A DNA stretch of 34,122 nt from Acrocarpospora catenulata (GTDB taxonomy: Bacteria; Actinomycetota; Actinomycetes; Streptosporangiales; Streptosporangiaceae). The first letter of the stretch is position 1, and each line of letters starts with the position of its first letter. Below are positions 7,197 to 31,520 of this stretch, one piece after another. The stretch spans positions 1 to 34,122 of the forward strand of contig NZ_JAHCST010000084.1 of NCBI RefSeq assembly GCF_018476525.1, given 5' to 3'. Below the pieces are notes generated by a model. That model was not told where the DNA came from, did not search any database, and worked only from the letters and a program-made list of their open reading frames with translations. The translations under genes were made by a program, and so were the position numbers.

Positions 7197-7392
7197 CGCC
7201 TGTTGGCCCCCACATGTGTGCACCGCCGCGCCGGCCGTGTCGATGGCAGCACGAACATCCCGGAACCACTCTGGGACCGGGGGTATTGACACCAGGCTAC
7301 TTCCCCCGGGCCCGGCACTGTGCGAGTCGGGGCGGAAACCCCGATGAATGAGTAATCGATTGACTACTCTTCGTGACATGTCTGAGGTGCGA
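7197..7392. promoter_or_regulatory. Divergent promoter region of mfd and the methyltransferase gene
   Basis: This is the only non-coding stretch between the two divergent genes, so promoters for both should lie here. A TTGACA hexamer occurs on the plus strand at about 7286, and AT-rich sequence occurs at 7345-7380. I could not pair either with a convincing -10 box, so no exact promoter is called. Confidence 0.35.
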
Positions 7393-17135: not shown

Positions 17136-18212
17136 CTATCCGGCGGGGACTTTCGTCACCGAGAAATGGGAATCGGTGGCGAGGGCGGTGAAGGCGGTCG
17201 CGGCGGCCGGGGTGGTGTCGAAGCGGGTGTCGCCGCGTGGGGCCCAGGGGGAGTCGAAGTAGACCAGGGCCTTGATCTGGGGGTAGGCGCGGATCTGGGC
17301 GCGTACCGAGCGGTAGAAGTCGGGCTTGAAGCGGGGATGGTCCTGGCGTTCGAAGGCTCCCCACTCGGCGACCATGATGGGCTTGGCGGGGAAGCGGGAC
17401 TGTGCCCAGCGGTAGAAACCCGGCCATTCCGGGTGGTCGGGGCGGGTCTTGTCGACCAGGCCGGCGAAGTCGGCGACCCGCCCGTCCGCGTACGGATCCA
17501 GACCGATCCAGTCGACCACGTCGTCACCGGGGTAGAGCCGCTCGAACCAGGGCTTGGACGACCAGTTCGGGGCGCCCATGTACGTCATGACAGTGACCGC
17601 GTTCCGTACGCCCTGGGCCCGCAGCCGGGTGACCACGTGCCGGAACATGTTCGCGTAGTCCTCGGCGGAGCGGCCGGGGGCGGCGGCGACGTCGTCCTCC
17701 GGCTCGTGGTGGATGGTGAGGAAGAACCGGCCGGGGAAGGTGCGCAGGATGTACGCCGCCAGGGCGTCGATGCGCCGGTCCACGGCGCCGGACGCGATCT
17801 CCGCCCAGGTGTGGCGGAGGGACGGCTTCCAGTTGATCAGCAGTAGCCGGGGGCCGGCGGCCAGGGCACGCTCCTCGGGGGTCGGGAAGAGCTCGCCGCC
17901 CCGGTGGTAGACGTGCACGATGTCGGCGGGCCGGCCCATGCGCTCCTCCGTGCGGGCCACGGCGCGGGACGGCCGGTGGCCGGTGAAGACCTCCGGGGCG
18001 ACGCCCCACCAGGCGCCGCAGGTGGGGATGAGCTTGGCGGTGACCACGCAGTCGTGGGCGAGCGGATGCCCGGGTGGGCTGAAGCGGGGGCGGGGGTTGG
18101 CCGACGTCGTTGAACCGGAATTTCCGGAAATGCCGGACGCGGCCGCGCAGCCGGTGAGCAGCGCGGCCGAGCCGATGGCCGCCACCCGCTTGACGTTGAA
18201 CGTGACGCGCAT
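17136..18212 (-). CDS. Secreted GH26-like (clan GH-A) glycoside hydrolase lipoprotein
   Basis: Predicted lipid-anchored glycosidase of 358 residues on the outer face of the membrane. The signal peptide ends with lipobox LTGC (Cys22), followed by a Ser/Gly/Thr-rich linker to about residue 45. The rest resembles a TIM-barrel beta-mannanase-like fold. HHEPE at 168-172 supplies a likely acid/base at E170, and MVAEWGAFE at 280-288 supplies a likely nucleophile at E283. VVDWIGLDPYA and the aromatic YFDSPWAPRGD match substrate-cleft segments of the clan. It is divergent from the Wzz-like gene across a 197-bp control region. It may trim, release or remodel the polysaccharide made by the neighbouring genes; the substrate is unknown. 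Confidence 0.83.
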   Translation of the reverse strand: MRVTFNVKRVAAIGSAALLTGCAAASGISGNSGSTTSANPRPRFSPPGHPLAHDCVVTAKLIPTCGAWWGVAPEVFTGHRPSRAVARTEERMGRPADIVHVYHRGGELFPTPEERALAAGPRLLLINWKPSLRHTWAEIASGAVDRRIDALAAYILRTFPGRFFLTIHHEPEDDVAAAPGRSAEDYANMFRHVVTRLRAQGVRNAVTVMTYMGAPNWSSKPWFERLYPGDDVVDWIGLDPYADGRVADFAGLVDKTRPDHPEWPGFYRWAQSRFPAKPIMVAEWGAFERQDHPRFKPDFYRSVRAQIRAYPQIKALVYFDSPWAPRGDTRFDTTPAAATAFTALATDSHFSVTKVPAG

Positions 18213-18409
18213 GCGTTCACCTTTCCATCAATGCCAGGGAGCGGGGGGCGTTCTTTCTCATATCACATGAGCCGACATGTCCGTTGAACGACGGTTATTG
18301 TCACGTGATTCGACGACAGAAAATCTTCAATATTCGGTGGGGGAATCTTCAGCCGCGCCTATAGTTCGTAGTCCTTTCACCGATCCGCCGTCCCGTCACG
18401 AGGTCCTTG
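18213..18409. promoter_or_regulatory. Divergent control region of the polysaccharide plus arm and the glycosidase
   Basis: This 197-bp region is distinctly A/T-richer than the neighbourhood. It contains an 8-bp palindrome TCACGTGA at 18301-18308 and two direct copies of AATCTTCA at 18322-18329 and 18344-18351. The copies are 22 bp apart, about two DNA turns, on one face. A TATAGT hexamer at 18360-18365 is a plausible -10 box for the rightward operon. The second direct repeat would sit in the -10/-35 spacer, which would suit a regulator that contacts polymerase there. Confidence 0.55.
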
Positions 18410-19201
18410 ATGAGCCTGTCGCCGCACAGCCGCGATCTCGCCGAGTACCTGGGGGTGTTCCGGCGGCGGTGGTTGTCGCTGCTGTTCTGCCTGGTCGCGT
18501 GGCTGGCGGCGGGAGCCGGGGCGGTGTTCCTGCTGCCGTCGGCGTACACGTCGGCGGCCGAGGTGCAGGTGGTGGCCAGCGGGGTCGCCGAACCGGGCAA
18601 TCTGGTGACGCAGCGGCAGCGGGAATCCCTCAATCTGGATACCGAGGCGCAGATCGTTCAATCGTCGGTGGTTGCCACCCAAGCCGCCCAGACCCTGAAT
18701 TATCCGGATGTGGAGGGGTTGCGGGATAGGGTCCGGGTCGATGTTCCCCCGAATTCCGGAATTCTCCGGATTTCGTTTACGGCACCGGATGCGGCGTCGG
18801 CCGCAGCGGGGGCGCAGGCGTTCGCGGAGGCGTACCTGAAACACCGCGCCGCCGCCGCGACGGAAACGCTTTCTGTGCAGATGAACGCGTTGATCGCGAA
18901 ACTCCGCCAGGTCAACGCCTCGCTCACCAAGGCCGCTGGCGAGGTGGCCACGCTCCCCCGGGCCTCGGCCGCGCGCAGCCTCGCCCTCCACCAGCAGTCC
19001 ATGCTGGCCCGCCAGGCGACCACCCTCGCCCTCCGGTACGACACCCTCAAAACCACCCCGATCACCCCCGGCACGGTGATCAGCCCCGCCCGTCCCCCGG
19101 CCACCACGAGCTCTCCCCGCCCGCCGATCTACCTCGGTGGCGCGCTCTTCCTCGGCCTGCTGACCGGCGTCGTCCTCGCCTTCGCCCGGGAGTCCAGGTG
19201 A
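18410..19201 (+). CDS. Wzz/YveK-like polysaccharide chain-length determinant protein
   Basis: Inner-membrane protein of 263 residues with the two-helix Wzz plan. A cytoplasmic N-terminus (SPHSRDLAEYLGVFRRRW) leads into a first membrane segment at about 22-42. An extracytoplasmic helical domain of roughly 190 residues, rich in Ala/Gln, follows, then a Pro-rich segment (ISPARPPATTSSPRPP) just before a second membrane helix at about 240-258. No tyrosine-kinase domain follows, unlike Wzc-type co-polymerases. It should control the length of the polymer made by the next gene. The ATG at 18410 follows GAGG at close spacing; a TTG one codon earlier is less likely. It is the first gene of a tightly overlapping six-gene operon. 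Confidence 0.83.
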   Translation: MSLSPHSRDLAEYLGVFRRRWLSLLFCLVAWLAAGAGAVFLLPSAYTSAAEVQVVASGVAEPGNLVTQRQRESLNLDTEAQIVQSSVVATQAAQTLNYPDVEGLRDRVRVDVPPNSGILRISFTAPDAASAAAGAQAFAEAYLKHRAAAATETLSVQMNALIAKLRQVNASLTKAAGEVATLPRASAARSLALHQQSMLARQATTLALRYDTLKTTPITPGTVISPARPPATTSSPRPPIYLGGALFLGLLTGVVLAFARESR

Positions 19202-20454
19202 GGGCGGTCTGGCCGATCTGGGCGCTGCTGGTGGGATATCCGGTCTGGTGGGCGCTGGGGTTCGGGGGGCTGGCGGTCGTCGTGGTGGCCGTTCCCATGG
19301 GCTTGGTGCTGTGGCGGCGGCGGCCGATCCGGGTCCCGAAGGGGTTCGGATGGTGGGCGCTGCTGATCGTGGGGTACCTGCTGAGCGCGCTCACCCTCGG
19401 CGAGTCGCCCGAAGGCACGTACGGGGAGTTCGGCGGCGGCCGGGTGGCCGGGTACCTGATGCGGCTGACCGTCTATCTGGCGCTGCTGGTCATGGTGCTC
19501 TACCTGGGCAACCTCACCCGGGACGAACTCCCGCAGCTCCGGCTGGTCCGGATGCTCGGCGCGCTCTTCCTGACCACGGTCGCGGGCGGGCTGCTCGGGG
19601 TGCTGGCGCCGACGTTCGCGTTCACCTCGCCGGTCGAGCGGGTGCTGCCGGGCTGGCTCGCCACGCACCCGTTCGTCACCAACCTCATCCATCCGACGGC
19701 GGCCCAGATCCAGTACGTGCTGGGCCACGCCCTGCCCCGGCCGGAGGCGCCGTACGAATGGGCCAACGCCTGGGGCAGCAACCTGTCCGTGCTGGTCATC
19801 TGGTTCGTGGTCGGCTGGTGGGCGTACGGGGGGCCGCTGCGCAAGGCGCTGCTGGCCGTGGTGCTGGCGGTGGCGGCGGTTCCGGTCGTGTACTCGCTCA
19901 ACCGGGGGCTGTGGATCGGGCTGGGCTTCTCCCTGGCGTACCTGGCGGTGCGGGGACGGCGGCTCCTGCCGGCCGGGCTCGCGGTGGCGGCGGGGGCGGT
20001 CCTCGCGTTCAGCCCGCTCGGCGGCCTGGTCACCCAGCGCCTGGACAATCCGCACAGCAACGACATCCGGGCGTTCACCGTGACCGCGACCGTCCGGGCC
20101 GCCGCGAGCTCGCCGGTCATCGGGTACGGGAACACCCGGTACGCCTACGGCAGCCACCGCACCATCACCACCGGCCGGACGGACTGGTGCCGCGAGTGCG
20201 GCCATCCCCCGCTGGGCAGCGACGGGCAGCTCTGGCTGCTGATAATCACCCAGGGGTTCGCGGGGGCAGCGCTCTACGTCGTGTTCTTCGCGGGAGCCGT
20301 ACGCCGGTACTGGACTGATCGTTCGCCGATCGGGCAGGCGGGTGTGCTGGTGATGCTGCTGGCGCTGTTCTACATGGTCATCTACGACGGCATGATCACC
20401 GCACTCAGCCTGTACCTGATCTCGTTCGCGCTGCTGTGGCGGAACGCCACATGA
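19198..20454 (+). CDS. O-antigen ligase/Wzy-polymerase-like membrane protein
   Basis: Polytopic membrane protein of 418 residues with about ten to twelve hydrophobic segments. It has one long outer loop at about 275-345 that includes NTRYAYGSHRT and a Cys pair in WCRECGHPPLGSDGQ. The region NRGLWIGLGFSLAYLAV followed by the loop and a membrane segment matches the Wzy_C/O-antigen ligase plan, where loop Arg and His residues bind lipid-linked glycan. Probable role is to join undecaprenyl-linked repeat units into polymer outside the membrane. It starts with GTG in a GTGA overlap with the Wzz-like gene, and its stop overlaps the next start. The Wzy versus ligase distinction cannot be made from sequence. 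Confidence 0.8.
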   Translation: MRAVWPIWALLVGYPVWWALGFGGLAVVVVAVPMGLVLWRRRPIRVPKGFGWWALLIVGYLLSALTLGESPEGTYGEFGGGRVAGYLMRLTVYLALLVMVLYLGNLTRDELPQLRLVRMLGALFLTTVAGGLLGVLAPTFAFTSPVERVLPGWLATHPFVTNLIHPTAAQIQYVLGHALPRPEAPYEWANAWGSNLSVLVIWFVVGWWAYGGPLRKALLAVVLAVAAVPVVYSLNRGLWIGLGFSLAYLAVRGRRLLPAGLAVAAGAVLAFSPLGGLVTQRLDNPHSNDIRAFTVTATVRAAASSPVIGYGNTRYAYGSHRTITTGRTDWCRECGHPPLGSDGQLWLLIITQGFAGAALYVVFFAGAVRRYWTDRSPIGQAGVLVMLLALFYMVIYDGMITALSLYLISFALLWRNAT

Positions 20455-21341
20455 GCGACGCCCGCCTCCGCCTCCGCTACCTCGAAGAGGTGATCACTTT
20501 GCTCTTCCCGCCCGACCTCCGCACCTCGGCCCGTACCCTGCTGCCGCACCGTCTGGTCCCCCGGCGGCTGGTCCCCCGCGCCCGCTGGCACGTGGGAGGA
20601 CGCCTGCTGGTCGGCGACGGTCCCGACACCATCGAAACCCACCTGAGCACGGTGTTCGGGCGGCGGGTACACACGGTGGTGCGGGTGCGCCCGGCCCGGC
20701 GGGCCAACCGCAAACCCGTCCTGGAGGCGTACGGGACGAGCGGGCTGCTCGGGTTCGTCAAGATCGGGGACAGCGACCGGGCGCGGCGGCTGGTCCGGCA
20801 CGAGGCGGCGACCCTGCGCGGGCTGCCCGAACTGCGCACGGTGGTGGCGCCGGAAGTGCTCCATCACGGCAGCTGGCGCGGGCTGGACGTGCTGGTGTTG
20901 TCCCCGCTTCCGATCACCACCGCGGGGATCGCGCCCGGGACGCTCGTCTCGGCGGTCGCGGAGATCGCGGCGCTGCATCCGTCCGGGGCCTGGCACGGGG
21001 ACTTCTCGCCGTGGAACCTGGCGGCGGGCGCGGACGGGCGGCTGCTGGTCTGGGACTGGGAGCGTTTCGGCACCGAAGTGCCGACCGGGTTCGACGCGCT
21101 GCACCACTTCTTCCAGTCGGCGCTGCGGCGGATGCGCCCGCCGGTGGCCGCGCAGGCGTGTGTCGCCCAGGCGGGGCGGGTGCTGGAGCCGTTCGGGTAC
21201 GCGACGGGAGCGGCCCGGCTGGTCGCCGCGCGCTACCTGATCACGCTCGCCGATCGCTACTCCGCCGACGGGCACCAGCCGCTGGGCGACCCCGTGACCT
21301 GGCTCAACCCTGTTCTGGATCATCTGGAGGTGCTGCCGTGA
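20451..21341 (+). CDS. APH/choline-kinase-fold phosphotransferase
   Basis: Cytoplasmic kinase-like protein of 296 residues with unknown substrate. The APH-type catalytic loop HGDFSPWN is at 182-189, and the metal-binding acidic segment is DWE at 202-204. An upstream Lys in GFVKIGD (K104) and Glu in RHEAATL (E118) are in the right places for the ATP-binding lobe. ATGA overlaps the previous gene by four bases, so the GTG five codons upstream is unlikely. Located between the polymerase and a sulfotransferase, it may phosphorylate a sugar, a lipid-linked intermediate or the glycan itself. Antibiotic resistance is not suggested by context. Fold is confident and role is inferred. Confidence 0.82.
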   Translation: MSDARLRLRYLEEVITLLFPPDLRTSARTLLPHRLVPRRLVPRARWHVGGRLLVGDGPDTIETHLSTVFGRRVHTVVRVRPARRANRKPVLEAYGTSGLLGFVKIGDSDRARRLVRHEAATLRGLPELRTVVAPEVLHHGSWRGLDVLVLSPLPITTAGIAPGTLVSAVAEIAALHPSGAWHGDFSPWNLAAGADGRLLVWDWERFGTEVPTGFDALHHFFQSALRRMRPPVAAQACVAQAGRVLEPFGYATGAARLVAARYLITLADRYSADGHQPLGDPVTWLNPVLDHLEVLP

Positions 21342-22189
21342 GCGCTCTGAAGACCACCGCCCACGCGGTGTCCATCACCGCCGGGCGGCTGACCGGACGC
21401 CGGCGCATGTTGCCGTCCTTTCTGATCATCGGCGCCCAGCGTTGCGGGACGACGTCCCTGTATCGGGCGTTGGCGCAGCATCCGCTGATGGTCAAGCCGG
21501 TGCTCCGGAAGGGCGTGCACTACTTCGACATGGCCTACGACCGGGGCTTGTCGTGGTACCGGGCGCATTTTCCGTTACGCGCGACGGCCGCCAGGCTGGA
21601 GCACCGGTACGGCTGCCGCCCGCTGGCCTTCGAATCCTCGCCCTACTACCTGTTCCATCCGCTGGCGGTTTCCCGGATCGCCTGGGATCTGCCGGGGGTG
21701 AAGCTGATCGTACTGGTACGGGATCCGGTGGAGCGCGCCTATTCGGCCCACGCGCACGAGTTGGCGCGGGGGTTCGAGACGGAGGCGTCGTTCGAGCGGG
21801 CCATCGACCTGGAGGAGGAGCGCCTGGCGGGGGCCGCCGAGCGGATGCGGAGCGATCCCGGTTATGTCAGTCACGCCCATCGGCACCAGGCGTACCTGTC
21901 GCGGGGGCGGTACGCCGAGCAGTTGGCGCGGCTGGATCTGCTGGTCGGGCCGGAGCGGCTGCTCGTGCTCGACAGCGGTCACTTCTTCGCCGAACCCGAG
22001 CCGGCCTATGAGCGGGTGCTCAGGTTCCTCGGTCTGCCCCAGCTGGGCAACCCGGTGTTCGAACGCCACAATGCCCGTCCCCGAGCGGAGATGCCCGACT
22101 CCCTCCGCCGCCGCTTGTCCGACTATTTCCTGACGTGGGATGCCCTCCTCCAGCCGTGGCTCGGGGGAACGCCGTCATGGCGGCATTGA
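21338..22189 (+). CDS. Sulfotransferase of the heparan-sulfate/NDST type
   Basis: PAPS-dependent sulfotransferase of 283 residues. The 5'-phosphosulfate loop is GAQRCGTTSLY at 32-42. The 3'-phosphate site is VLVRDPVERAYSAH at about 125-138, with Arg128 and Ser136 as likely binding residues. KGVHYFD at 58-64 and FESSPYYLF at 98-106 match the K-x-x-x-F-F and K/S-P-x-Y elements of glycosaminoglycan sulfotransferases. The C-terminal ERVLRFLGLP segment is also typical of that group. It should add sulfate to a sugar hydroxyl or amine of the polysaccharide or its lipid-linked unit. It starts with GTG in a GTGA overlap with the kinase gene. No membrane anchor is seen, so it should act in the cytoplasm. 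Confidence 0.9.
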   Translation: MSALKTTAHAVSITAGRLTGRRRMLPSFLIIGAQRCGTTSLYRALAQHPLMVKPVLRKGVHYFDMAYDRGLSWYRAHFPLRATAARLEHRYGCRPLAFESSPYYLFHPLAVSRIAWDLPGVKLIVLVRDPVERAYSAHAHELARGFETEASFERAIDLEEERLAGAAERMRSDPGYVSHAHRHQAYLSRGRYAEQLARLDLLVGPERLLVLDSGHFFAEPEPAYERVLRFLGLPQLGNPVFERHNARPRAEMPDSLRRRLSDYFLTWDALLQPWLGGTPSWRH

Positions 22190-23493
22190 TCCCCCCGGGC
22201 GGTCGGACGGCTGGTGAGAGCCGGAAGACGGCAGGAGTCACGGGGGTGCTCCTGCATATGGTCGGGCGGAAGAACGCCGCCGGTCTGGTGGGGGCAGGGG
22301 TGAACGCTGCCGCGCAGTTTCTGCTGGTCGTGGTGGTGACGCGGACGCTCGACACGGCGGCGGCGGGGACGTTCTTCACGATCACGGCGGCGATGGTGAT
22401 GCTGGCCGGGGTGCTTCGCCTGGACGCGGGGAACGGGTTGATCTACTTCCGCGCCCGCACAACCCGAGTCCCGAAATTTCGTGACATGGAGGTTCGGGGG
22501 CAGCCGGCGACGGCGTCGCCCTCGCGGCCGTTGTTGTGGGTGGCGTTGGCGCCGGTGGTGCTGGGGTCGGTGGCGGCGGGAGCAGGGCTGGCCAGCGGGT
22601 CGGCGATGATCCTTCCGGCGGCGCTCGTACTGCCTTTCGTGGTGGTCGCGGACGTGCTCGTGTCGGCCACCAGAGGGCGGGGATCGATGCGGCCGACGCT
22701 CCTGCTGGACGGCCTGCTCCAGCCCATCGGCCAGCTGGTCCTGGTGACGGTCGCCGTGCTCGCCGGGGCTCCTTTCCCGGTGATCCTGCTGGCCTGGGCC
22801 CTCCCGGCGATCCCGGTCACCCTGCTGGCGGCCCGCCAACTCGCCCGCAGGCCCTACGGTTCGGTCACCTGGCCGGAATTCTGGCGCTACACCGCTCCGC
22901 GTTCGGTGGCCGCCGCCATCCAGGCCGTGTTCCAGCGCCTGGACATCGTGCTCGTCGCCCTGCTAGCGGGTCCGGCCCAGGCCGCGATTTACACCGCCGC
23001 CACCCGGTTCAGGGTGGTGGGGCAACTGGTCAGCCAGGGGCTGGCGCAGGCCGTACAGCCGAGGCTGGTGCGCGCGATGGCGGACGGCGACCCGGCGGAG
23101 GCCTGGCGGGCCTACCGGCGGGCCACCCGGACGTTGATCGTGCTCACCTGGCCGCTCTGGGTGGGGTACGCGGCCTTCGCCCCATGGATCCTCCAGCTGT
23201 TCGGACCGGGCTACCCGCAGGCCGCGGACATCGCGCTGGTGTTGTCGATCACCATGCTGGTCGCCACCGGCTGCGGCCTGGTCGACGTGGTGCTGATCGC
23301 GGCCGGCCGTACCACCACCAGCCTGGTCAACACCGCCGCCGCGGTCGGCACCACCGTCCTGCTGGACCTGCTGCTGGTCCCCGGCCTGGGCGCGCTGGGC
23401 GCGGCGCTCGGCTGGTCCGGGGGCGTGCTGGTCAAGAACCTGCTCCCGCTCGCCCAGATCACCCGGAGCTACGCCCCCCGGGTCGCCGCATGA
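22177..23493 (+). CDS. Wzx-like polysaccharide flippase (MOP superfamily)
   Basis: Integral membrane protein of 438 residues with about twelve hydrophobic segments. Family-type features are the early AAGLVGAGVNAAAQFLLVVVVTR-like first helices, with the D-T-A-A-A-G-T-F-F motif following them. In the second half PRSVAAAIQAVFQRLDIVLVALL is very typical of Wzx/MurJ-like transporters. Likely role is to flip the undecaprenyl-linked, possibly sulfated, repeat unit for polymerisation. I chose the ATG at 22177 because GGGGGA lies about nine bases upstream; this overlaps the preceding sulfotransferase by 13 bases. The frame extends to 22135, but without a ribosome binding site. Confidence 0.87.
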   Translation: MAALIPPGGRTAGESRKTAGVTGVLLHMVGRKNAAGLVGAGVNAAAQFLLVVVVTRTLDTAAAGTFFTITAAMVMLAGVLRLDAGNGLIYFRARTTRVPKFRDMEVRGQPATASPSRPLLWVALAPVVLGSVAAGAGLASGSAMILPAALVLPFVVVADVLVSATRGRGSMRPTLLLDGLLQPIGQLVLVTVAVLAGAPFPVILLAWALPAIPVTLLAARQLARRPYGSVTWPEFWRYTAPRSVAAAIQAVFQRLDIVLVALLAGPAQAAIYTAATRFRVVGQLVSQGLAQAVQPRLVRAMADGDPAEAWRAYRRATRTLIVLTWPLWVGYAAFAPWILQLFGPGYPQAADIALVLSITMLVATGCGLVDVVLIAAGRTTTSLVNTAAAVGTTVLLDLLLVPGLGALGAALGWSGGVLVKNLLPLAQITRSYAPRVAA

Positions 23494-24368
23494 CCATCCT
23501 CGTCACGGGCCTCCCCCGCAGCGGCACCAGCTGGACCGGCCAGATGCTCCGCGCCTCCGGCGAACTCGTGTACGTCAACGAACCGCTCAACCCGGAACGC
23601 GACTACCCGGGCGTGCTGAACGGCCCCCGGCCCTGGCGGTTCCAGTACATCTGCGCCGACAACGAAGCCGACTGGCTGCCCGCCTTCACCGCCACCGCGC
23701 GCCTGCGCTACCGCTTCCTGCCCGAGCTGCGCCGCAACCGCGACCCGGGCTCGCTGGCCCGGCTGGCCAAGCACGGCACCGCGTTCACCCTCGGCCGGCT
23801 GCGCGGCCGCCGCGCCCTGCTGGACGACCCGTTCGCCCTGTTCTCTGCAGGCTGGTTCGCCACCCGGCTCGGCTGCCAGGTGATCATCCTGGTCCGCGAG
23901 GCGGTCCCGTTCGTGGGCAGCTGGCAGCACCTCGGCTGGACCGTCTACTTCCACGAGCTGCTGGAACAGCCCCTGCTCACCCGCGACCACCCGGGCCTGC
24001 TCGCGCTGCGCGAGCACGTCGGCAGCCAGGACCGCCTGGCCAAGGCGGCGGCCCTCTGGCGGGCCGCCCGCGACGTGACGGCCACCATCGCGGCCGGCAC
24101 CCCGGGGGTCCGGGTGGTCGGTTACGAGGCCCTCGCCGCCGATCCCCTGGCCGGCTTCCGCGACCTCTACGAATGGTGCGGCCTGCCGTGGACCGACCGG
24201 GCGGCGCGGCTGATCCACCGCGCCTGCACCGGTTCCGCCGCCGAGCGGCCGTTCGCCTGGTCCGGGCTGACCCGGACCGCCTTCCGCCGCACCGACAGCG
24301 CGGCGGCGGCCACCCGGAGCAGGCTCTCCCCCGCCGAGGCCCGCCGGGTGACCGCGCTCGTCAGGTGA
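23490..24368 (+). CDS. PAPS-dependent sulfotransferase (second)
   Basis: Sulfotransferase of 292 residues, unlike the one at 21338. The 5'-phosphosulfate loop GLPRSGTSWTGQML is at 7-20 and a conserved EPLNP follows at 31-35. The 3'-phosphate site is ILVREAVPFVGSWQHLGW at about 133-150, with Arg136 and Ser144. The C-terminal part has a helical region ending RLSPAEARRVTALVR, where a late PSB-adjacent loop would lie. Cytoplasmic, with no signal peptide. ATGA overlap with the flippase shows it belongs to the same operon and is its last gene. It ends inside the convergent glycosyltransferase gene with an 8-base overlap. Acceptor is unknown; a different position on the same glycan is my inference. 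Confidence 0.88.
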   Translation: MTILVTGLPRSGTSWTGQMLRASGELVYVNEPLNPERDYPGVLNGPRPWRFQYICADNEADWLPAFTATARLRYRFLPELRRNRDPGSLARLAKHGTAFTLGRLRGRRALLDDPFALFSAGWFATRLGCQVIILVREAVPFVGSWQHLGWTVYFHELLEQPLLTRDHPGLLALREHVGSQDRLAKAAALWRAARDVTATIAAGTPGVRVVGYEALAADPLAGFRDLYEWCGLPWTDRAARLIHRACTGSAAERPFAWSGLTRTAFRRTDSAAAATRSRLSPAEARRVTALVR

Positions 24369-25182
24369 ACAGGCGCCTGACCGCGCAGAGGGTTAACAGG
24401 CCCAGCGCGTACGGCAGGTCGTCCACCAGGTATCGCCTGGCCAGCCGGGCCGGTTCGGTGGCCAGGCGGAACAGCCACTCCAGGCCGAGGTCGCGCATCC
24501 AGGCGGGCGCCCGCTGCACCGACCCGGCGGCGAAGGCGATGGCCGAGCCGCAGCCGACGAACCAGGCCCCCGGCAGGTCGTCGCGGAGCCGCTCGATGAC
24601 CAGGTCCTGCTTGGGGAACCCGAGCCCGACGAAGACCAGCAGCGGCGCCGCGTCCACCAACGCCTTGCGGACCTGCTCGAACTGCTCGTGGTCGTGCTCG
24701 AACCCGTACGGCGGGGCGTCCACCCCGGCGATGATCAACCCCGGATACCGGTCGCAGAGCGCGATGGCGGCCTGGTCGGCCACCCCGGGCGCGCCCCCCA
24801 GCAGGTAGACCGGCACCCGGTAGAACGCCGCCGCCTCCGACAGGGACCAGATCAGGTCGGCGCCGGTGATCCGCGCCGGCACCGGACGGCCCAGCAGGCG
24901 GGCCGCCCAGACCAGCGGCATGCCGTCCGCCACCGCCAGCTCCGCCCGGAGCACCAGCGCGCGCAGGCGCTCGTCCCTGGCACAGGACCGGCAGATGTCC
25001 ACGTTCGGGGTGACCAGATGACCGCCGCGCCCGCGCCGGAGCGCGCCGATCACCCGGTCCACCACCTCGATCTCGGTCAGCCGGTCGAGCTCGATCCCAG
25101 CCACCGCCACCCGGCGCCGCCGCACCGGCCGGTCGGGGGAGAGCCGCTGCCGGGGAATGACCGGTAGAGAAGTCAGCCGCAT
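24361..25182 (-). CDS. WecG/TagA/CpsF family glycosyltransferase
   Basis: Glycosyltransferase family 26 protein of 273 residues; family members add N-acetylmannosamine-type or related sugars to lipid-linked intermediates. Visible features are TPNVD at 58-62, the catalytic-region ADGMPLVWAARLLG at 85-98, ITGADL at 105-110, YLLGGAPGVADQA and the late LVFVGLGFPKQD. The C-terminal RxxxEPxRLxRRY element (ATEPARLARRY) is typical and helps bind the lipid-linked acceptor at the membrane. It starts with ATG, one base overlapping the GT2 stop. It is the last gene of the minus arm. Donor sugar cannot be read from sequence. Confidence 0.92.
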   Translation of the reverse strand: MRLTSLPVIPRQRLSPDRPVRRRRVAVAGIELDRLTEIEVVDRVIGALRRGRGGHLVTPNVDICRSCARDERLRALVLRAELAVADGMPLVWAARLLGRPVPARITGADLIWSLSEAAAFYRVPVYLLGGAPGVADQAAIALCDRYPGLIIAGVDAPPYGFEHDHEQFEQVRKALVDAAPLLVFVGLGFPKQDLVIERLRDDLPGAWFVGCGSAIAFAAGSVQRAPAWMRDLGLEWLFRLATEPARLARRYLVDDLPYALGLLTLCAVRRLFT

Positions 25183-26063
25183 CAGATTCCGTGACCCCTG
25201 GTGTGCAACAGGGACAGCACGGTGCGCGCCGGGACCAGCCCGGCCGCCACCGCCAGCGCGATCGGCGCCCGCGGCTCGCTCCGCCGCGCGGCCATCGCCC
25301 GCACCGCCCAGCGCGCGGCCTCCCGGCGGCGGCCCAGCGCGGCGTGGTGGAAGGCAAGCTGGCCGTAGATCCTGGCCACCCCTCGCTGGTCGGCGGCCAG
25401 TTCGGGGTGGCGGGCCAGCATCCACTCCAGCCCGGCGATGCGTTCCCCCCAGCGGGCCACCGCGCGCTGCCCGTCCCAGCCGACCCGGACCAGCGGCCGG
25501 TCCACGTGCGCGATCGGCCGCCGCTTGGCCGCGCGCAGGGCCAGGTCCCAGTCCTCGTTCTGGCCGCCGGGGGCGCTCTCGTCCACCCAGTACGCGCCGC
25601 GGCGGAACAGGAAGGTCGAGGAGTGCACCATGACCATCCGGGATCGCACCAGGTCGGTGAGGGTGATCTCCGGTTTGCCCGCGGTGCGGGTGATCCGGCG
25701 CGAGCCGTACGCGACCTCGATGGCGCAGCTGGCGAACTCGGCGTCGCCGAGGGCTTCGAGCTGGGCGGCGAGCTTGCCGGGCAGCCACAGGTCGTCGTCG
25801 TCGCAGAAGGCCACCAGGTCGGTGCCGAGCGCGGCGATGCCGGTGTTGCGGGCGCCGGGGAGGCCGGGGGTGAGCCGGTTGGGCAGCACCCGGACCTGCC
25901 GGGTCAGGTCGCCCAGCTGGCCGGCGACGTCGATGGGATCGCAGTCATCGGCGACCACGACCACGGCGGCGGGTTCCTGGGCGAGCACGGCGGCCAGGGC
26001 CGCGCGCAGTGGCCCCGGCCGGTCGCCGCAGGTGGGGATGACCACACCGACGGACGGGTTCAT
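25182..26063 (-). CDS. Family 2 glycosyltransferase
   Basis: GT-A fold glycosyltransferase of 293 residues. The N-terminal VGVVIPTCGDR begins the nucleotide-binding domain. LPGARNTGIAALGTDLVAFCDDDD leads into the metal-binding acidic cluster at 88-91 followed by LW. The catalytic-base region is GGQNEDWDLALRA at 167-179. Residues after 220 are helical, with no clear membrane segment apart from a weak hydrophobic stretch near 270-285. ATG follows GGAG by about seven bases. It lies 16 bp after the third sulfotransferase and overlaps the next gene by one base. It probably adds one sugar of the repeat unit; the sugar is unknown. Confidence 0.9.
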   Translation of the reverse strand: MNPSVGVVIPTCGDRPGPLRAALAAVLAQEPAAVVVVADDCDPIDVAGQLGDLTRQVRVLPNRLTPGLPGARNTGIAALGTDLVAFCDDDDLWLPGKLAAQLEALGDAEFASCAIEVAYGSRRITRTAGKPEITLTDLVRSRMVMVHSSTFLFRRGAYWVDESAPGGQNEDWDLALRAAKRRPIAHVDRPLVRVGWDGQRAVARWGERIAGLEWMLARHPELAADQRGVARIYGQLAFHHAALGRRREAARWAVRAMAARRSEPRAPIALAVAAGLVPARTVLSLLHTRGHGI

Positions 26064-26079
26064 AGGGGTTCTCCGTAGT

Positions 26080-26994
26080 TCAGCGGTAGGCCAGGCGGTA
26101 GCCGTACCGGAGCAGAAAAGGCAGGGTGATGAGGGTGACCGCCCAGCGGTGGTGGCGCGGGAGGCCGGGGGTCGTGCGCCGGAACCTGACCCGGCCGACG
26201 GTGAAGCGCATCGGGTTGCCGGAGACGGTGTGGGCGACGCCGAGGCGGGCTTCTCGGCCGGTGATGAAGTCGAGGGTGTCGGGGGCGCACTGCAGGCCGA
26301 GCCGGTCGGCCAGGCCGCGCAGGGTTTCGGCCGGTTCGGCCACCAGATCCTCGTAGTGCACCCGGAGTACCGGCACGCCCCGGCCGCGGAGCAACTCGAA
26401 GGCGAGATTCTGGACCAGCCAGTGCACCGCGGTGCGGGCGGGGCTCCACCTGGTCATCGGATGGCCGTCCTCCGGGCGGGCCACCTTGCGCCGCCAGGAA
26501 GCGGCCACCGCGCGCGGGTCGCGCACCACGTGCACCACCCGCAGGTCGATGATGGCGGCCAGGCAGTAGGCCAGCGAGGCGTGCTTGCTGGAGTCCACCA
26601 CGACCTGGCCGCCGCCGATCTCCGCGGCGGCGGCGTAGAGCCGGTGGTAGGCCGCCACGTACTCGGTGAGCAGGGCCTCCCGGCTGATCAGGCCGAGCGC
26701 GAAGACCGGGACCCGGCGGGTGCGGTCCACCTGGTCACGCAACTCCAGCAGCCGATCGGCCTTGCCCGGCCGCCAGCCACCGAACGCGCGGTCACCCACC
26801 CGGTGCCAGAAGGGGCACTGGGAGAACGGCAACCGGCAGCCGCAGGGCTCGTCGGCCCGCACGCCGCGCTGCCACAGGTGCACCACCTCGCCGAGCGCGG
26901 CGACCCCCGGCAGTTCGCCGAGCAGGCGCTCCAGCAGCGTGGTGCCACTGCGGCCCAGCCCGCCCACAAAGATCACCGGCAGAGCGTCAGTCAC
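26080..26994 (-). CDS. PAPS-dependent sulfotransferase (third)
   Basis: Sulfotransferase of 304 residues, again a distinct subtype. The 5'-phosphosulfate loop GGLGRSGTTLLERLL is at 11-25. A cysteine-rich patch CGCRLPFSQCPFW at 51-63 follows. VVVDSSKHASLAYCL at 131-145 matches the DSSK element of this group. The 3'-phosphate site is HVVRDPRAVAASWRRK at 155-170 with Arg158 and Ser166. It starts with GTG, with GGGAG about eight bases upstream. The gap upstream to cysN is 87 bp, so it may have its own promoter or continue the cysQDN transcript. The family is widespread in actinomycetes; acceptor is inferred to be the local glycan or its lipid intermediate. Confidence 0.9.
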   Translation of the reverse strand: MTDALPVIFVGGLGRSGTTLLERLLGELPGVAALGEVVHLWQRGVRADEPCGCRLPFSQCPFWHRVGDRAFGGWRPGKADRLLELRDQVDRTRRVPVFALGLISREALLTEYVAAYHRLYAAAAEIGGGQVVVDSSKHASLAYCLAAIIDLRVVHVVRDPRAVAASWRRKVARPEDGHPMTRWSPARTAVHWLVQNLAFELLRGRGVPVLRVHYEDLVAEPAETLRGLADRLGLQCAPDTLDFITGREARLGVAHTVSGNPMRFTVGRVRFRRTTPGLPRHHRWAVTLITLPFLLRYGYRLAYR

Positions 26995-27081
26995 GTACGA
27001 CTCCCGAAAGGAATACGGAACGTGCTGACGTTAGCGCGGAGAGTAACCGGATGTTCAGCGAACGGGCAATGTTTTACCTGG
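26995..27081 (-). promoter_or_regulatory. Gap between cysN and the third sulfotransferase
   Basis: This is the widest gap within the minus arm (87 bp) and is A/T-richer than the flanking genes. It could hold an internal promoter for the sulfotransferase and the two glycosyltransferases. A TTGCCC hexamer on the minus strand is followed 17 bases later by TTACTC, a weak match only. No terminator hairpin is visible. Confidence 0.3.
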
Positions 27082-28326
27082 TCAGACGATCATTCCGGCC
27101 CCGACCGTGCCGTTGGTGGCCTCGTCGATCAGGATGAAGCCCCCGGTGAGCCGGTTCCTGGCGTAATCGTCCACGAACAGCGGCTGGGTGATGCGGAGCG
27201 AGACCCGCCCGATCTCGTTCAGCGTCAGCTCGGCGGCCGACTCGTCACGGTGCAGGGTGTTCACGTCCAGCCGGTAGTGCAGGTCCTTGACCAGCGCCCG
27301 GGCGGTGCGGGTGGTGTGCTTGATGGTCAGCTTGGTCCGGGGGCGCAGCCGCAGGCCGTCTGCCATCCAGCAGACCATCGCGTCGATCTCCTGGGTGACG
27401 GCGGGCTGGTTGTGCGGGCGGCAGATCATGTCGCCGCGCGAGATGTCGATCTCGTCCTCCAGCCGGAGCGTCACCGACATGGGCGGGAACGCCTCCTCCA
27501 CCGGCCCGTCGAAGGTGTCGATGGCCGCGATCCGGGTGGTCAGACCGGAGGGCAGGTGGAGCACCTCGTCGCCCGGCTTCAGCACGCCACCGGCCACCTG
27601 ACCGGCGTAGCCCCGGTAGTCGTGGAACTCGGTGCGGTGCGGACGGATCACGTACTGCACGGGGAAGCGCACGTCGACCAGGTTCCGGTCGGAGGCGATG
27701 TGCACGTTCTCCAGGTGGTGCAGCAGCGAGGAGCCCTGGTACCAGGGCATGTTCTCGGAGCGGGAGACCACGTTGTCGCCGTGCAGCGCGGAGATCGGGA
27801 TGAAGGTCAGGTCGCTGGCGTTGAGCTTGGAGGCGAAGGAGGTGAACTCCTCGCGGATCTCCTCGAACCGCTCCTCGGAGTAGCCGACCAGGTCCATCTT
27901 GTTCACCGCGAGCACCAGGTGCGGCACCCGGAGCAGGGTGGTCAGGAAGGCGTGCCGCCGGGACTGCTCCAGCACGCCCTTGCGGGCGTCGATCAGGATG
28001 ATGGCCAGGTCGGCGGTGGAGGCGCCGGTGACCATGTTCCTGGTGTACTGGATGTGCCCGGGAGTGTCGGCGATGATGAACTTCCGCTTGGGCGTGGCGA
28101 AGTAGCGGTAGGCCACGTCGATGGTGATGCCCTGCTCCCGCTCGGCGCGCAGGCCGTCGGTGAGCAGCGAAAGGTCGGTGTACTCGGTCCCCCGGTCCCG
28201 GCTGGTGCGCTCCACTGCCTCCAACTGGTCCTCGAAGATGGCCTTGGAGTCGAAGAGCAGGCGGCCGATGAGGGTGGATTTCCCGTCGTCCACGGAACCT
28301 GCGGTGGCGAAGCGAAGGATGTCCAT
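27082..28326 (-). CDS. cysN: Sulfate adenylyltransferase subunit 1 (GTPase)
   Basis: GTP-hydrolysing subunit of the CysDN ATP sulfurylase that makes APS from sulfate and ATP. It has 414 residues, an EF-Tu-like layout and intact GTPase motifs: GSVDDGKST at 10-18, DTPGH at 87-91 and NKMD at 142-145. Two beta-barrel domains follow. There is no fused CysC kinase domain at the C-terminus, unlike many actinobacterial CysNC/NodQ proteins, so PAPS formation needs the separate kinase at 9839-11068. The open frame runs upstream to 28737, but ATG at 28326 matches the family start, with GGGGAG eight bases before it. Confidence 0.96.
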   Translation of the reverse strand: MDILRFATAGSVDDGKSTLIGRLLFDSKAIFEDQLEAVERTSRDRGTEYTDLSLLTDGLRAEREQGITIDVAYRYFATPKRKFIIADTPGHIQYTRNMVTGASTADLAIILIDARKGVLEQSRRHAFLTTLLRVPHLVLAVNKMDLVGYSEERFEEIREEFTSFASKLNASDLTFIPISALHGDNVVSRSENMPWYQGSSLLHHLENVHIASDRNLVDVRFPVQYVIRPHRTEFHDYRGYAGQVAGGVLKPGDEVLHLPSGLTTRIAAIDTFDGPVEEAFPPMSVTLRLEDEIDISRGDMICRPHNQPAVTQEIDAMVCWMADGLRLRPRTKLTIKHTTRTARALVKDLHYRLDVNTLHRDESAAELTLNEIGRVSLRITQPLFVDDYARNRLTGGFILIDEATNGTVGAGMIV

Positions 28327-28356
28327 TACCGGCGCGCTCCCCTGATCTGGACGGCC

Positions 28357-28368
28357 ATTTCTAGAAAT
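28357..28368. repeat. 12-bp perfect palindrome over the cysD stop
   Basis: ATTTCTAGAAAT is a perfect 12-bp palindrome containing the cysD stop codon and lying just ahead of the cysN ribosome binding site. It stands out as an A/T-rich CTAG-containing site in very GC-rich DNA. It could be a short mRNA hairpin or protein site, or chance. Confidence 0.35.
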
Positions 28369-29275
28369 ACCCTTCCTTCTTGCGGTCTTCCATCGCGGCC
28401 TCCGAAGCCCGGTCGTCCGCCCGGGTGGCCCCGCGCTCGGTGATCCGGGTGGCCGCGATCTCGTCGATGATCTCGCTGACCGTGCTGGCGGTGGACGGCA
28501 CCGCGCCGGTGCAGGTGATGTCGCCGACCGTGCGGTAGCGCACCACGGCCTCGAAGAGCGGCTCGTCCTCGCCGCGCTCCAGCACGTCGGACTCCGGCAG
28601 GAGCATGCCGTCCCGCTCGAAGACCCGGCGGGTGTGGGCGAAGTAGATGGACGGGATCTCGATGCCCTCGCGGCGGATGTAGTCCCAGACGTCCAGCTCG
28701 GTCCAGTTGGAGAGCGGGAAGACCCGGATGTGCTCACCCTTGCGGATCTTCGCGTTGTACAGGTTCCAGAGCTCGGGCCGCTGGTTCTTCGGGTCCCACT
28801 GGCCGAAGTCGTCGCGGAAGGAGAAGACCCGCTCCTTGGCCCTGGCCTTCTCCTCGTCCCGCCGGGCGCCGCCGAAGACCGCGTCGAACTCCTGCTCCTC
28901 GATCGCGTCCAGCAGGGTGGTGGTCTGCAGGCGGTTGCGCGAGGCGCGCCGGCCGGTCTCCTCGACCACCCGGCCCGCGTCGATGGACGCCTGCACCGAG
29001 GCCACCACCAGCCGGGCGCTCAGCTCGGCCACCCGCTTGTCGCGGAACTCGATGACCTCGGCGAAGTTGTGCCCGGTGTCCACGTGCATGAGCGGGAACG
29101 GGATCGGGGCGGGCCAGAACGCCTTCTCGGCGACCCGCAGCATCACGATCGAATCCTTGCCGCCGGAGAACAGCAGGCAGGGGCGCTCGAACTCGGCCGC
29201 GACCTCACGCATGATGTGGATCGCCTCGGCTTCGAGGACATCGAGCTGCGACGTGGTGTAGTCGCGCTGAAGCAT
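28361..29275 (-). CDS. cysD: Sulfate adenylyltransferase subunit 2
   Basis: Catalytic adenylylating subunit of the CysDN ATP sulfurylase, 304 residues, a normal length. The PP-loop LLFSGGKDS is at 34-42. Other typical elements are PLMHVDTGHNFAEV, VFGGARRDEEKARAKER and FPLSNWTELDVWDYI, and the C-terminal RxSERxGR-like end (TERGATRADDRASEAAMEDRKKEGYF) matches the family. ATG at 29275 follows AGGAAG by about six bases. That ribosome binding site lies within a duplicated segment described separately. It is co-transcribed with cysQ upstream and cysN downstream (34 bp). Confidence 0.97.
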   Translation of the reverse strand: MLQRDYTTSQLDVLEAEAIHIMREVAAEFERPCLLFSGGKDSIVMLRVAEKAFWPAPIPFPLMHVDTGHNFAEVIEFRDKRVAELSARLVVASVQASIDAGRVVEETGRRASRNRLQTTTLLDAIEEQEFDAVFGGARRDEEKARAKERVFSFRDDFGQWDPKNQRPELWNLYNAKIRKGEHIRVFPLSNWTELDVWDYIRREGIEIPSIYFAHTRRVFERDGMLLPESDVLERGEDEPLFEAVVRYRTVGDITCTGAVPSTASTVSEIIDEIAATRITERGATRADDRASEAAMEDRKKEGYF

Positions 29276-29281
29276 GGGGGC

Positions 29282-29324
29282 TTCCTATCGGTGGAGGTCG
29301 GTGGAGGCTTTCCTATCGGTGGAG
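29282..29324 (-). repeat. 28-bp-spaced direct repeat at the cysQ-cysD junction
   Basis: TTCCTATCGGTGGAG occurs at 29282-29296 and again at 29310-29324, with a partial third copy (CGGTGGAG) at 29299-29306. Read on the minus strand, each full copy contains the sequence of the cysQ stop codon TAG and an AGGAA element. The copy next to cysD supplies its ribosome binding site. It looks like a small tandem duplication that lengthened the spacer. Confidence 0.75.
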
Positions 29325-30071
29325 ATCATGGATTCCGGCGAGCAACGTCGGCGCCAGATCCGGTAGGGAGACCAGGATATCCGGCAGAGAGGGGTCACCC
29401 TGGTTGTAGGTGAGCGGCGAGCCGTCGATTCGGCTGGCGTGCGCGCCCGCGGCCAGGGCCACCGCCACGGGGGCGGCCGAGTCCCATTCGTACTGGCCAC
29501 CGGCGTGTACGTAGGCCTCGACCTCGCCGGTGAGCACGGCACAGATCTTGGCGCCCGCGCTGCCGATCGGGACCAGGTCGGCGCCGACCAGGTAGGCCAG
29601 CTTCTGCACGAACTCCGGCGGCCGGGTGCGGCTCACCGCGATCCGGAACCGGGTGCCCGCGTGGCGGGGCAGCTTCGGGGGCTCACCGGTGGAGAGCGTG
29701 CGCCCCTGGGCGGGCAGCGCCACCGCGCCCGCGGCCAGCCGGCCCTGCTCCCAGAGGGCCACGTGCACCGCCCAGTCCGCCCGGCCGGCCTCGCCGAACT
29801 CGCGGGTGCCGTCCAGCGGGTCGACGATCCACACCCGGTTGGCCGCCAACCGGGCCGGGTCCGCGCGCTCCCCCTCCTCCGACAGCACGCTGTCGCTCGG
29901 GCGCAGCCGCTCCAGCGACTCGGTGAGGAACCTGTGGGAGGACCGGTCACCGGCGTCCTTGAGCGCCTTGGGGTCGTCGAAGCCGTACTTGGCGCGCAAC
30001 TGGAGCAACTTCTCGCCGGCTTCGGTCGCCAGGTCGGCGGCCAAGGCGTGGTCGTCCCGAATCGTCTTCAC
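29313..30071 (-). CDS. cysQ: 3'(2'),5'-bisphosphate nucleotidase (PAP phosphatase)
   Basis: Inositol-monophosphatase-fold enzyme of 252 residues that converts PAP, the by-product of sulfotransferases, to AMP and can also remove 3'-phosphate from PAPS. Metal-site motifs are intact: SEEG at 64-67, WIVDPLDGTREF at 81-92 and EWDSAAP at 195-201. A GTG start lies three bases after the stop of the sugar transferase, so it is coupled to the polysaccharide gene. Its place among sulfotransferases and cysDN fits PAP clearance. PAP inhibits sulfotransferases, so this step would keep sulfation going. Confidence 0.94.
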   Translation of the reverse strand: MKTIRDDHALAADLATEAGEKLLQLRAKYGFDDPKALKDAGDRSSHRFLTESLERLRPSDSVLSEEGERADPARLAANRVWIVDPLDGTREFGEAGRADWAVHVALWEQGRLAAGAVALPAQGRTLSTGEPPKLPRHAGTRFRIAVSRTRPPEFVQKLAYLVGADLVPIGSAGAKICAVLTGEVEAYVHAGGQYEWDSAAPVAVALAAGAHASRIDGSPLTYNQGDPSLPDILVSLPDLAPTLLAGIHDLHR

Positions 30072-30074
30072 TGT

Positions 30075-31520
30075 TTAGTACGCTCCCGCTCCGCGTGCCA
30101 CGGCCGACCACGTCTTCCAGAGGATCTGAAGATCCAACATCAGCGACCAGTTCTCGACATAACGTAGGTCCAACCGTACCGATTCCTCCCAGGAGAGGTC
30201 GGATCGCCCGTTGACCTGCCAGAGGCCGGTCATGCCCGGGCGGACCAGCAGGCGGCGGCGGACGTCGTCGCCGTACCTGGCCACCTCGGCGGGGAGTGGG
30301 GGGCGCGGGCCGACCAGGGACATGTGGCCGCGGGCCACGTTGAGCAGCTGGGGCAGCTCGTCCAGCGAGTGGCGGCGGAGCCAGGCGCCCAGCCGGGTCA
30401 GCCGGGGATCGTGACGGATCTTGAAAAGCACGCCCTCGACGTCGCTGACCAGCTCGACCTTGCGCGCCTCCGCGTCCACCCGCATGGTACGAAATTTCAG
30501 GATCGTGAACTCCACGCCGTCGCGGCCCACCCGGGTCTGCCGGAAGAGCGCCGGGCCCTTGCTGGTGGCCCGGACGCCGATCGCCAGCCCGGCCAGCAGC
30601 GGGGCCAGCAGCACCAGGGCCAGGCCCGCCACCGCCCGGTCGAAGCCGTTCTTGATCAGCCGCCGGGCGCCGGCCAGTTCGGGATGCTCCACGTGCAGCA
30701 ACGGTAGCCCCGCCACCGGCCGGATCGTGGTCCGCGGCCCGGCCACCTCCATCAGCGCCGGAGCCACCACCAGGTCGGTGCGGCTGCGCTCCAGCCGCCA
30801 GGCCAGGCGGCGCAGCGCGGTGCCGTCGAACTCGGGGCAGGCCAGCACGGCCACCGTGTCGGCCCGCAGCTGGGCCACCACGATCGGCACGTCGGTGAAG
30901 TCGCCCAGCACCGGCACACCCACCTCACCGCGCCCGGTGGGCAGGCAGGCGGCGACCACGTCCATGCCGTGGTAGCGCTCCCGGCGGAACCGGCGGATCA
31001 GGTCGGCGACCGCCTCGGGGTGACCGACCGCGATCACCCGGCGCATGCAGTGCCCCCGGGCGCGGCGGCGGTGCAGGGCGCGACGCAACCCGTACCTGCC
31101 GAGGAGGGTGAAAACGGTGGTCAGCGGGAGGGCCAGCACCAGATAGCCGCGGGCCAGGTCGGTCTTGGTCACGTAGGCCACGACGGCGACCGCGGCGGTC
31201 ACCGCGAAGCCCGACTGGGCGACCCGGCGGAACTCCTCGGAGCCCACACCGATCAGTCGGGGCTCGTAGACGCGGTTGAGTCCCATCACGATCACCCATA
31301 ACAATGGGAGCGTTCCACTCAACGCTACGTAGGGCACCACGTACGCAGTGACTTCGCCGAAGCGCACGGCCACCGCGACCGCACCGGCGAGAAGGGCGCA
31401 CACGATGTCGCACAAGACCGCAGCGGCACGGTATCGGATGGTCCAGCTCGGCGGGCGTGCGCCTGCTGGAACCGTCTTCGGCCGTTCGGCGACGACCGCC
31501 TTCACCTCACCGTCCCACAC
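30075..31520 (-). CDS. Exopolysaccharide initiating sugar-phosphate transferase (polyprenyl glycosylphosphotransferase)
   Basis: Membrane enzyme of 481 residues that should transfer a sugar-1-phosphate onto undecaprenyl phosphate, the first step of repeat-unit synthesis. The N-terminal half has four or five membrane segments (about 30-145), then a Rossmann-like domain (CMRRVIAVGHPEAVADL onward). A further hydrophobic segment near 300-318 precedes the Bac_transf catalytic domain. FRQTRVGRDG, FTILKFRTM, DELPQLLNV, LVGPRPP and RPGMTGLWQVNGRSDL all match that domain. The start is GTG at 31520 with GGAGG about seven bases before it. It heads the minus arm, followed at 3 bp by cysQ. Donor sugar is not readable. 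Confidence 0.95.
   Translation of the reverse strand: MWDGEVKAVVAERPKTVPAGARPPSWTIRYRAAAVLCDIVCALLAGAVAVAVRFGEVTAYVVPYVALSGTLPLLWVIVMGLNRVYEPRLIGVGSEEFRRVAQSGFAVTAAVAVVAYVTKTDLARGYLVLALPLTTVFTLLGRYGLRRALHRRRARGHCMRRVIAVGHPEAVADLIRRFRRERYHGMDVVAACLPTGRGEVGVPVLGDFTDVPIVVAQLRADTVAVLACPEFDGTALRRLAWRLERSRTDLVVAPALMEVAGPRTTIRPVAGLPLLHVEHPELAGARRLIKNGFDRAVAGLALVLLAPLLAGLAIGVRATSKGPALFRQTRVGRDGVEFTILKFRTMRVDAEARKVELVSDVEGVLFKIRHDPRLTRLGAWLRRHSLDELPQLLNVARGHMSLVGPRPPLPAEVARYGDDVRRRLLVRPGMTGLWQVNGRSDLSWEESVRLDLRYVENWSLMLDLQILWKTWSAVARGAGAY

Follow-up and report, generated by a model that had tools for sequence, protein, structure and literature searches.

A predicted Wzx/Wzy-type locus for a sulfated polysaccharide in Acrocarpospora catenulata and its relatives

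Contig NZ_JAHCST010000084.1 of Acrocarpospora catenulata (Streptosporangiaceae; assembly GCF_018476525.1) belongs to a 10.29-Mb draft genome that is 98.4% complete, and its whole length of 34,122 nt is the window of this analysis. It carries, in two converging arms, a locus that probably builds a sulfated heteropolysaccharide through the Wzx/Wzy pathway, with 3′-phosphoadenosine 5′-phosphosulfate (PAPS) coming from flanking cys genes and with spores or aerial hyphae as the likely place where the polymer forms a coat. The kind of locus is already in print as the wps-1 cluster of Actinoplanes missouriensis (PMC13390465); new here are a variant conserved throughout a family, additional members of the locus, and an explanation in terms of PAPS.

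A preliminary description of the window had listed, at 17136-31520, a GH26-like enzyme, Wzz, Wzy, Wzx, three sulfotransferases (ST1, ST2, and ST3), two glycosyltransferases, CysN, CysD, a CysQ-like protein, and an initiating transferase. Pfam and NCBIfam profiles, read against the cut-off of each model, recover these (Table 1), Wzy only through its relatives and CysQ as a best match below cut-off, and three conserved members that had been overlooked, a kinase, CysC, and a methyltransferase, join the list. The search suggested there, for the same gene set and order in other actinomycete genomes, shows that among 64 named loci exceeding 20 kb in length, 60 keep the gene order of the window throughout what their 10-kb flanks cover, so the grouping of the genes is not due to chance. 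The proposal that the locus makes a sulfated glycan by a Wzx/Wzy-type route also gains support, from the gene content, from invariant sulfotransferase motifs that we take to bind PAPS, and from the linkage of wzy to ST1 in other families.

In the scheme we propose, the initiating transferase would load a hexose phosphate onto undecaprenyl phosphate, and the WecG- and GT2-type transferases would extend the lipid-linked sugar. The sulfotransferases, perhaps with the kinase and methyltransferase, would modify the repeat unit within the cell. Wzx would flip it, Wzy polymerise it, and Wzz set the chain length, while the GH26-like lipoprotein may trim or release chains outside the cell. CysDN would make adenosine 5′-phosphosulfate (APS), CysC would turn it into PAPS, and CysQ would clear the 3′-phosphoadenosine 5′-phosphate (PAP) left over.

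The assembly and modification genes

The initiating transferase, the glycosyltransferases, Wzx, Wzy, and Wzz are present together, as a Wzx/Wzy-dependent locus needs, with Wzy admitted through its relatives. The window Wzy itself has no Pfam match. Six hand-picked relatives, 31-46% identical, all match PF04932 Wzy_C, three of them above cut-off, and the assignment taken from these relatives is softer than the others. An AlphaFold model of Wzy built from 13 sequences reached a predicted local distance difference test (pLDDT) score of 51.7 and was not used. For the initiating transferase, the WcaJ and WbaP models both score under their cut-offs and so point to no particular first sugar. The GH26-like protein combines a profile score above cut-off with 2 glutamates, E170 (in HHEPE) and E283 (in EWG), that are invariant in 13/13 sequences and that we take to be catalytic; its LLTGC is presumably a lipobox. 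NCBIfam models gave no match to it.

ST1, ST2, and ST3 each exceed the cut-off of the sulfotransferase family profile and keep the presumed PAPS-binding motifs in alignments, the two features by which we call them PAPS-dependent sulfotransferases. The nearest solved relatives of ST1 are the bacterial sulfotransferase 3rnl and heparan sulfate 3-O- and N-sulfotransferases. ST3 matches tyrosylprotein sulfotransferases distantly, and the ST2 profile finds only marginal matches in the Protein Data Bank (PDB). Outside the window the genome holds 13 more open frames with PF13469 matches. Further sulfotransferase genes, with contexts (L261-L267) that were scanned with the locus profiles, lie elsewhere in the genome, two of them close together on contig C132.

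The kinase stands between wzy and ST1, and its model is matched best in the PDB by a putative fructosamine-3-kinase with a template modeling (TM) score of 0.47-0.50. WbdD is among the matches, alongside many protein kinases, at TM 0.34-0.36 by query length. Residues H187, D189, N194, D207, and E209 are invariant in 51 sequences.

Table 1. Features of the locus in the window; the starts of wzz, wzx, wecG, and cysN come from a separate choice of start codon.
Feature	Position	Strand	Basis
S-adenosylmethionine-dependent methyltransferase, marking the conserved left end (compare WpsF)	7348..8103	+	Methyltransf_11 37.8 bits; ahead of cysC
CysC, APS kinase with N-terminal PUA-like ATP sulfurylase remnant	9839..11068	+	APS_kinase 188.9 bits; PUA_2 65.7 bits
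GH26-like enzyme, probable lipoprotein	17136..18212	-	PF02156 24.1 bits (cut-off 20.2); LLTGC near N terminus
Conserved block resembling a promoter, upstream of wzz: AGAAAATCTT...CCTATAGT	18318..18365	+	Recurring motif pair
Wzz-like chain-length determinant	18410..19201	+	PF02706 37.3 bits (cut-off 25.5)
Wzy-like polymerase (O-antigen ligase/polymerase superfamily)	19198..20454	+	68-78% identical in 12 relatives
Kinase, APH/fructosamine-kinase fold (compare WpsI)	20436..21341	+	AlphaFold2 model, pLDDT 94.2
ST1, heparan-sulfate type (compare WpsH)	21338..22189	+	PF13469 45.8 bits (cut-off 27)
Wzx-like flippase	22177..23493	+	MatE 36.8 bits (cut-off 24.9) and Polysacc_synt_3 29.5 bits, both above cut-off
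ST2 (no counterpart described in wps-1)	23490..24368	+	PF13469 39.3 bits (cut-off 27); GLPRSGTSW invariant in 14/14
WecG/TagA/CpsF glycosyltransferase (compare WpsC)	24361..25182	-	PF03808 184.2 bits (cut-off 27.4); TIGR00696 138.5 bits (cut-off 69)
GT2 glycosyltransferase (compare WpsA)	25182..26063	-	PF00535 59.2 bits (cut-off 23.3)
ST3 (compare WpsB)	26080..26994	-	PF13469 70.7 bits (cut-off 27)
CysN, sulfate adenylyltransferase large subunit	27082..28326	-	TIGR02034 585.9 bits (cut-off 336.1)
CysD, sulfate adenylyltransferase small subunit	28361..29275	-	TIGR02039 449.5 bits (cut-off 396.6)
CysQ-like phosphatase (PAP phosphatase inferred)	29313..30071	-	Inositol_P 114.6 bits
Initiating polyprenyl-phosphate sugar transferase	30075..31520	-	PF02397 (Bac_transf) 218.3 bits (cut-off 27); TIGR03025 (EPS_sugtrans) 412.5 bits (cut-off 295.55)

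The two arms meet tail to tail, the ends of the ST2 and wecG reading frames sharing 8 bases (24361-24368). The interval from cysC to gh26 in the window also contains, at 11944-17022, genes for an ABC-2 exporter and one for an NB-ARC/TPR protein. The relatives examined have no match at the same place, so these genes are likely a later insertion, and we rejected them as members of the cluster. An extracytoplasmic function (ECF)-like frame at 9258-9764 adjoins cysC, and past pth the region 32825-34053 encodes an ECF sigma factor together with a small protein that no Pfam profile matches.

Conservation of the locus and spread of its core

We scanned 60 genomes, including that of A. catenulata, for WecG. 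A protein at least 47% identical was found in 17 other genomes, the remaining matches being at most 39% identical except for two short fragments (50-51%). In 11 of the 17, a near-complete set from gh26 to cysN-cysD-cysQ lies in one stretch flanked by mfd and pth matches; of these, G019 shows no wzx match and in G009 the initiating transferase match is short. Four of the other six (G001, G002, G003, and G007) agree with the window up to their contig ends, a 7-kb contig (G021) has wecG and the initiating transferase only, and a 5-kb contig from another family (G053) has a different partial set. The gap from cysC to gh26 is about 1 kb at most in the 12 relatives showing both, with the methyltransferase likewise beside gh26.

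Of 118 encoding stretches found in a second scan, of named genomes, the best 80 were kept; they represent 13 named genera plus metagenome-assembled and unassigned records; Actinoplanes is absent from these best 80. Gene presence, called by score thresholds that we set ourselves, was counted in the 64 stretches longer than 20 kb, the 16 shorter ones being omitted. All 64 have wzy, the kinase, ST1, gh26, and wzz, and wzx, ST2, cysC, and the methyltransferase are each found in 63. The four that deviate are L118 (no wzx), L124 (neither methyltransferase nor cysC), L158 (no wecG), and L166 (rearranged, no ST2). Because the flanks truncate the right arm, its counts out of 64 are lower: wecG 57, GT2 56, ST3 56, cysN 47, cysD 39, cysQ 31, and the initiating transferase 12.

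Part of the locus reaches further. Across the class, Wzy is matched at E ≤ 1e-10 in 76/394 genomes (own included), with at least 288 bits in 56 by hand count. One family has matches, some of them weak, in 77 of its 101 genomes, and another in 3 of 22. Across the phylum, a broader Wzy profile finds 16/396 genomes (own included) at E ≤ 1e-20. From 60 genomes scoring below the top group of the class scan, we picked 19 Wzy-centred stretches outside the close group; ST1 is near wzy in all 19 and the kinase in 18, with the three as direct neighbours in 16 by manual reading, and cysN or cysC recurs in 7. Within the 1.5-kb flanks of the weaker Wzy matches L283-L289, L291, L209, and L210, and of the stronger L276, neither kinase nor ST1 was found, so the module is restricted to part of the Wzy matches.

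The promoter-like block upstream of wzz was traced through 79 gh26-wzz regions, those of 78 named loci plus the window. TATAGT occurs in 74 of them (shuffled mean 2.5), and AAAATC[TC]T stands upstream of it at the right distance in 44, or in 62 in a looser form (shuffled mean 0.0 each). The strict pattern of the block is found once in the A. catenulata genome and in 3/21 genomes in all (own included), always upstream of wzz, and a reversed control found none. It is absent from the other 18, four of the same genus among them, hence the strict form is not general.

Sulfate activation by the flanking cys genes

The preliminary description gave the glycan genes a sulfate-activation supply of their own, and as worded that part was wrong. 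PF01583 (APS kinase) has a single match in the genome, the window CysC; PF01507 has two, the window CysD and a CysH on contig C98; and PF01747 (Sat-type sulfurylase) has none across the draft genome. Because the assembly is 98.4% complete, a further copy of CysD or CysC may exist. In four relatives whose stretch shows no wzy (G010, G011, G014, and G022), cysC and cysN-cysD-cysQ-pth are all the same kept within one 20-kb stretch. With sole copies of CysD and CysC found, and with both retained in these relatives, we rejected a dedicated set; the cys genes are the sole known sulfate-activation supply of the cell, with the cluster beside them. Nor is CysC exclusive to the locus, given the 13 further PF13469 frames. 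Between the cys genes of the same four relatives there is a kinase homologue in 3, a GT2-type match in 2, and an ST1-type sulfotransferase in 1. Stretches L251, L252, and L253, without wzy, have between cysC and cysNDQ a kinase homologue and a GT2/GT28-type protein or ST1-type sulfotransferase.

CysC has a P-loop, GLSGSGKST, that is invariant in 13/13 sequences. It is no bifunctional ATP sulfurylase/APS kinase by our profiles, which gave no match to the ATP-sulfurylase catalytic domain (PF01747) and 346.9 bits against a cut-off of 669 for PRK05537. The best match of the CysQ-like protein is TIGR01331, the CysQ equivalog, at 111.7 bits and short of its cut-off of 228.8, and from the gene context it is likely a PAP phosphatase.

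What CysC is for depends on CysH (L260:7075-7818), which carries CC and CAPC motifs and scores 231.7 bits on the APS-reductase model (cut-off 235.3) versus 167.3 bits on the PAPS-reductase equivalog (cut-off 254.2). From these it looks like an APS reductase, and CysC should then serve PAPS-dependent sulfation only, not cysteine synthesis. The CysH of Mycobacterium tuberculosis is reported to be a proven APS reductase; that of Corynebacterium glutamicum is inferred to be likewise, in a species described as lacking CysC and making cysteine without it (PMC1266029).

Known systems and alternative readings

The wps-1 cluster (AMIS_7280-AMIS_7380), published in June 2026, provides the comparison with mutants, and we rely on its published description (PMC13390465). 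It encodes a GT2 protein, a sulfotransferase, a WecG-type protein, a DUF4262 protein, GH26, a methyltransferase, Wzx, a heparan-type sulfotransferase, a kinase-like protein, Wzy, and Wzz, followed by AMIS_7390, of the sulfate adenylyltransferase/APS-kinase family, which adjoins wzz. Deleting wpsA, C, G, H, I, J, or K gave squashed sporangia, and deleting wpsE or wpsF gave abnormal ones; the wpsB mutant looked normal with fewer spores released, and the wpsD mutant was normal. The cluster is switched on as sporangia form, while growth of the mutants is normal. The AMIS_7390 mutant was severely affected in sporangia, which was "unexpected" to the authors. Where the preliminary description was unsure whether such a locus had been described, a matching type thus has been, with deletions and sporangium phenotypes and, in what that account presents, no chemical proof of sulfate.

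Going by the published description, the window shares with wps-1 the order wzx-sulfotransferase-kinase-wzy-wzz, matching content, and an APS-kinase-family gene nearby. It differs in its two converging arms, the second of which adds the initiating transferase and cysNDQ, in having ST2, in the placement of gh26 and the methyltransferase, and in showing no DUF4262 among its scanned frames. Among the matches listed in the open-licence literature, we recognised no other actinomycete description of such a locus. The synechan cluster xss of Synechocystis is also a Wzx/Wzy system, has two sulfotransferases, and makes a polymer whose sulfate was measured; unlike the window, it has eight glycosyltransferases and the regulators XssS/R/Q, is plasmid-borne in another phylum, and comes with no mention of cys genes in the text available (PMC8205485). 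WbdD of Escherichia coli O9a likewise combines a sugar kinase of protein-kinase fold with a methyltransferase in polysaccharide synthesis, but in an ABC-transporter pathway, whereas the two are separate genes in the window and the structural match is weak (PMC3482155). Sulfated polysaccharides have been called exclusive to cyanobacteria among bacteria (PMC13390465, PMC8205485), although the literature also lists marine Vibrio and Cobetia as having sulfated capsules (PMC11641403, PMC11766843).

Several points count against a sulfated coat polymer supplied by the cys genes. Sulfate in the polymer is here a prediction from genes, and sulfotransferase acceptors are not readable from sequence. ST1 has Gly (KGVHYF) where the aligned heparan-type enzymes have a Glu, presumably their catalytic base. 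KG[VI]H[YF]F is found in 77/78 named loci and in 14 of 19 far ST1 matches, the same Gly motif appearing in other families; the remaining six ST1 matches do not fit the motif, and none has the Glu form. CysH falls 3.6 bits short of the APS-reductase cut-off, and the model it does pass, NF002537, is titled phosphoadenylyl-sulfate reductase, which we take to cover both APS and PAPS reductases. CysDNQC serve other pathways too. The search for a WhiG-type promoter gave no signal: 3/79 gh26-wzz regions match, against a shuffled mean of 3.0, and 0/73, 1/73, and 0/20 in three other regions. The locus is present in Nonomuraea, Microbispora, and Herbidospora in the named-genome scan. In a control profile search C. 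glutamicum gave an APS_kinase match, which may be strong or weak; this conflicts with the description of that species as lacking CysC (PMC1266029). For wps-1, the authors predict a sulfated polymer with proof awaited, and AMIS_7390 is not co-induced with it (PMC13390465).

These points feed three other explanations. That the cys genes are housekeeping neighbours, linked to the glycan genes by their chance chromosomal position between mfd/eno and pth, is a possibility we take seriously while doubting it. The sole copies of CysD and CysC speak for it, as do their retention in all four inspected wzy-less relatives and the missing co-induction beside wps-1; yet if CysH reduces APS, CysC would be needed for nothing but PAPS, a kinase homologue persists amid the cys genes in three of those four relatives, joined in one by an ST1 homologue, cysN or cysC recurs in the picked stretches of other genera, and sporangia are defective when AMIS_7390 is deleted. 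Somewhat unlikely, in our judgement, is that the polymer belongs to the vegetative wall or capsule instead of coating spores or aerial structures: genera with and without sporangia have the locus, the gh26-wzz regions yielded no WhiG-like promoter signal, and the weak matches of the glycosyltransferases include the TuaG and TarA models, but wps-1 is induced when sporangia form and its mutants grow normally. We consider it improbable that the glycan is made unsulfated, with the three sulfotransferases acting on lipids, proteins, or small molecules. Their acceptor specificity cannot be predicted, ST1 is without the aligned Glu, and the distant tyrosylprotein relatives of ST3 and the marginal PDB matches of ST2 leave room for this; against it stand the proximity of ST1 to 3rnl and the heparan sulfate enzymes, its linkage to wzy in other families, and the sporangia formed without WpsH, which are squashed like those formed without Wzx, Wzy, or Wzz in A. 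missouriensis (PMC13390465).

We keep to the sulfated polymer; from the resemblance to wps-1, spores or aerial hyphae are the likeliest surface for it to coat. Nonomuraea, Microbispora, and Herbidospora are not known as sporangial, and since they carry the locus a strictly sporangial role is unlikely; a sporangium-only role is untenable as stated. A bolder reading, which we offer as speculative and rather unlikely, is that the module of Wzy, kinase, heparan-type sulfotransferase, and Wzx, which occurs in several actinobacterial families and extends outside the class, yields a glycosaminoglycan-like polymer carrying sulfate together with phosphate, or possibly methyl phosphate, and that its ST1 works without the usual Glu base. 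CysC would then in effect be a developmental gene, because PAPS would not be needed for cysteine.

If the sulfated-coat reading is true, sulfated surface glycans would be ordinary in spore-forming actinomycetes, the locus being found in 13 named genera of one family and its core module in many more genomes. The AMIS_7390 phenotype would gain a simple and testable reading as well: if that protein is like the window CysC, it may supply PAPS to the sulfotransferases, and the unexpected defect would be explained because loss of PAPS would stop sulfation.

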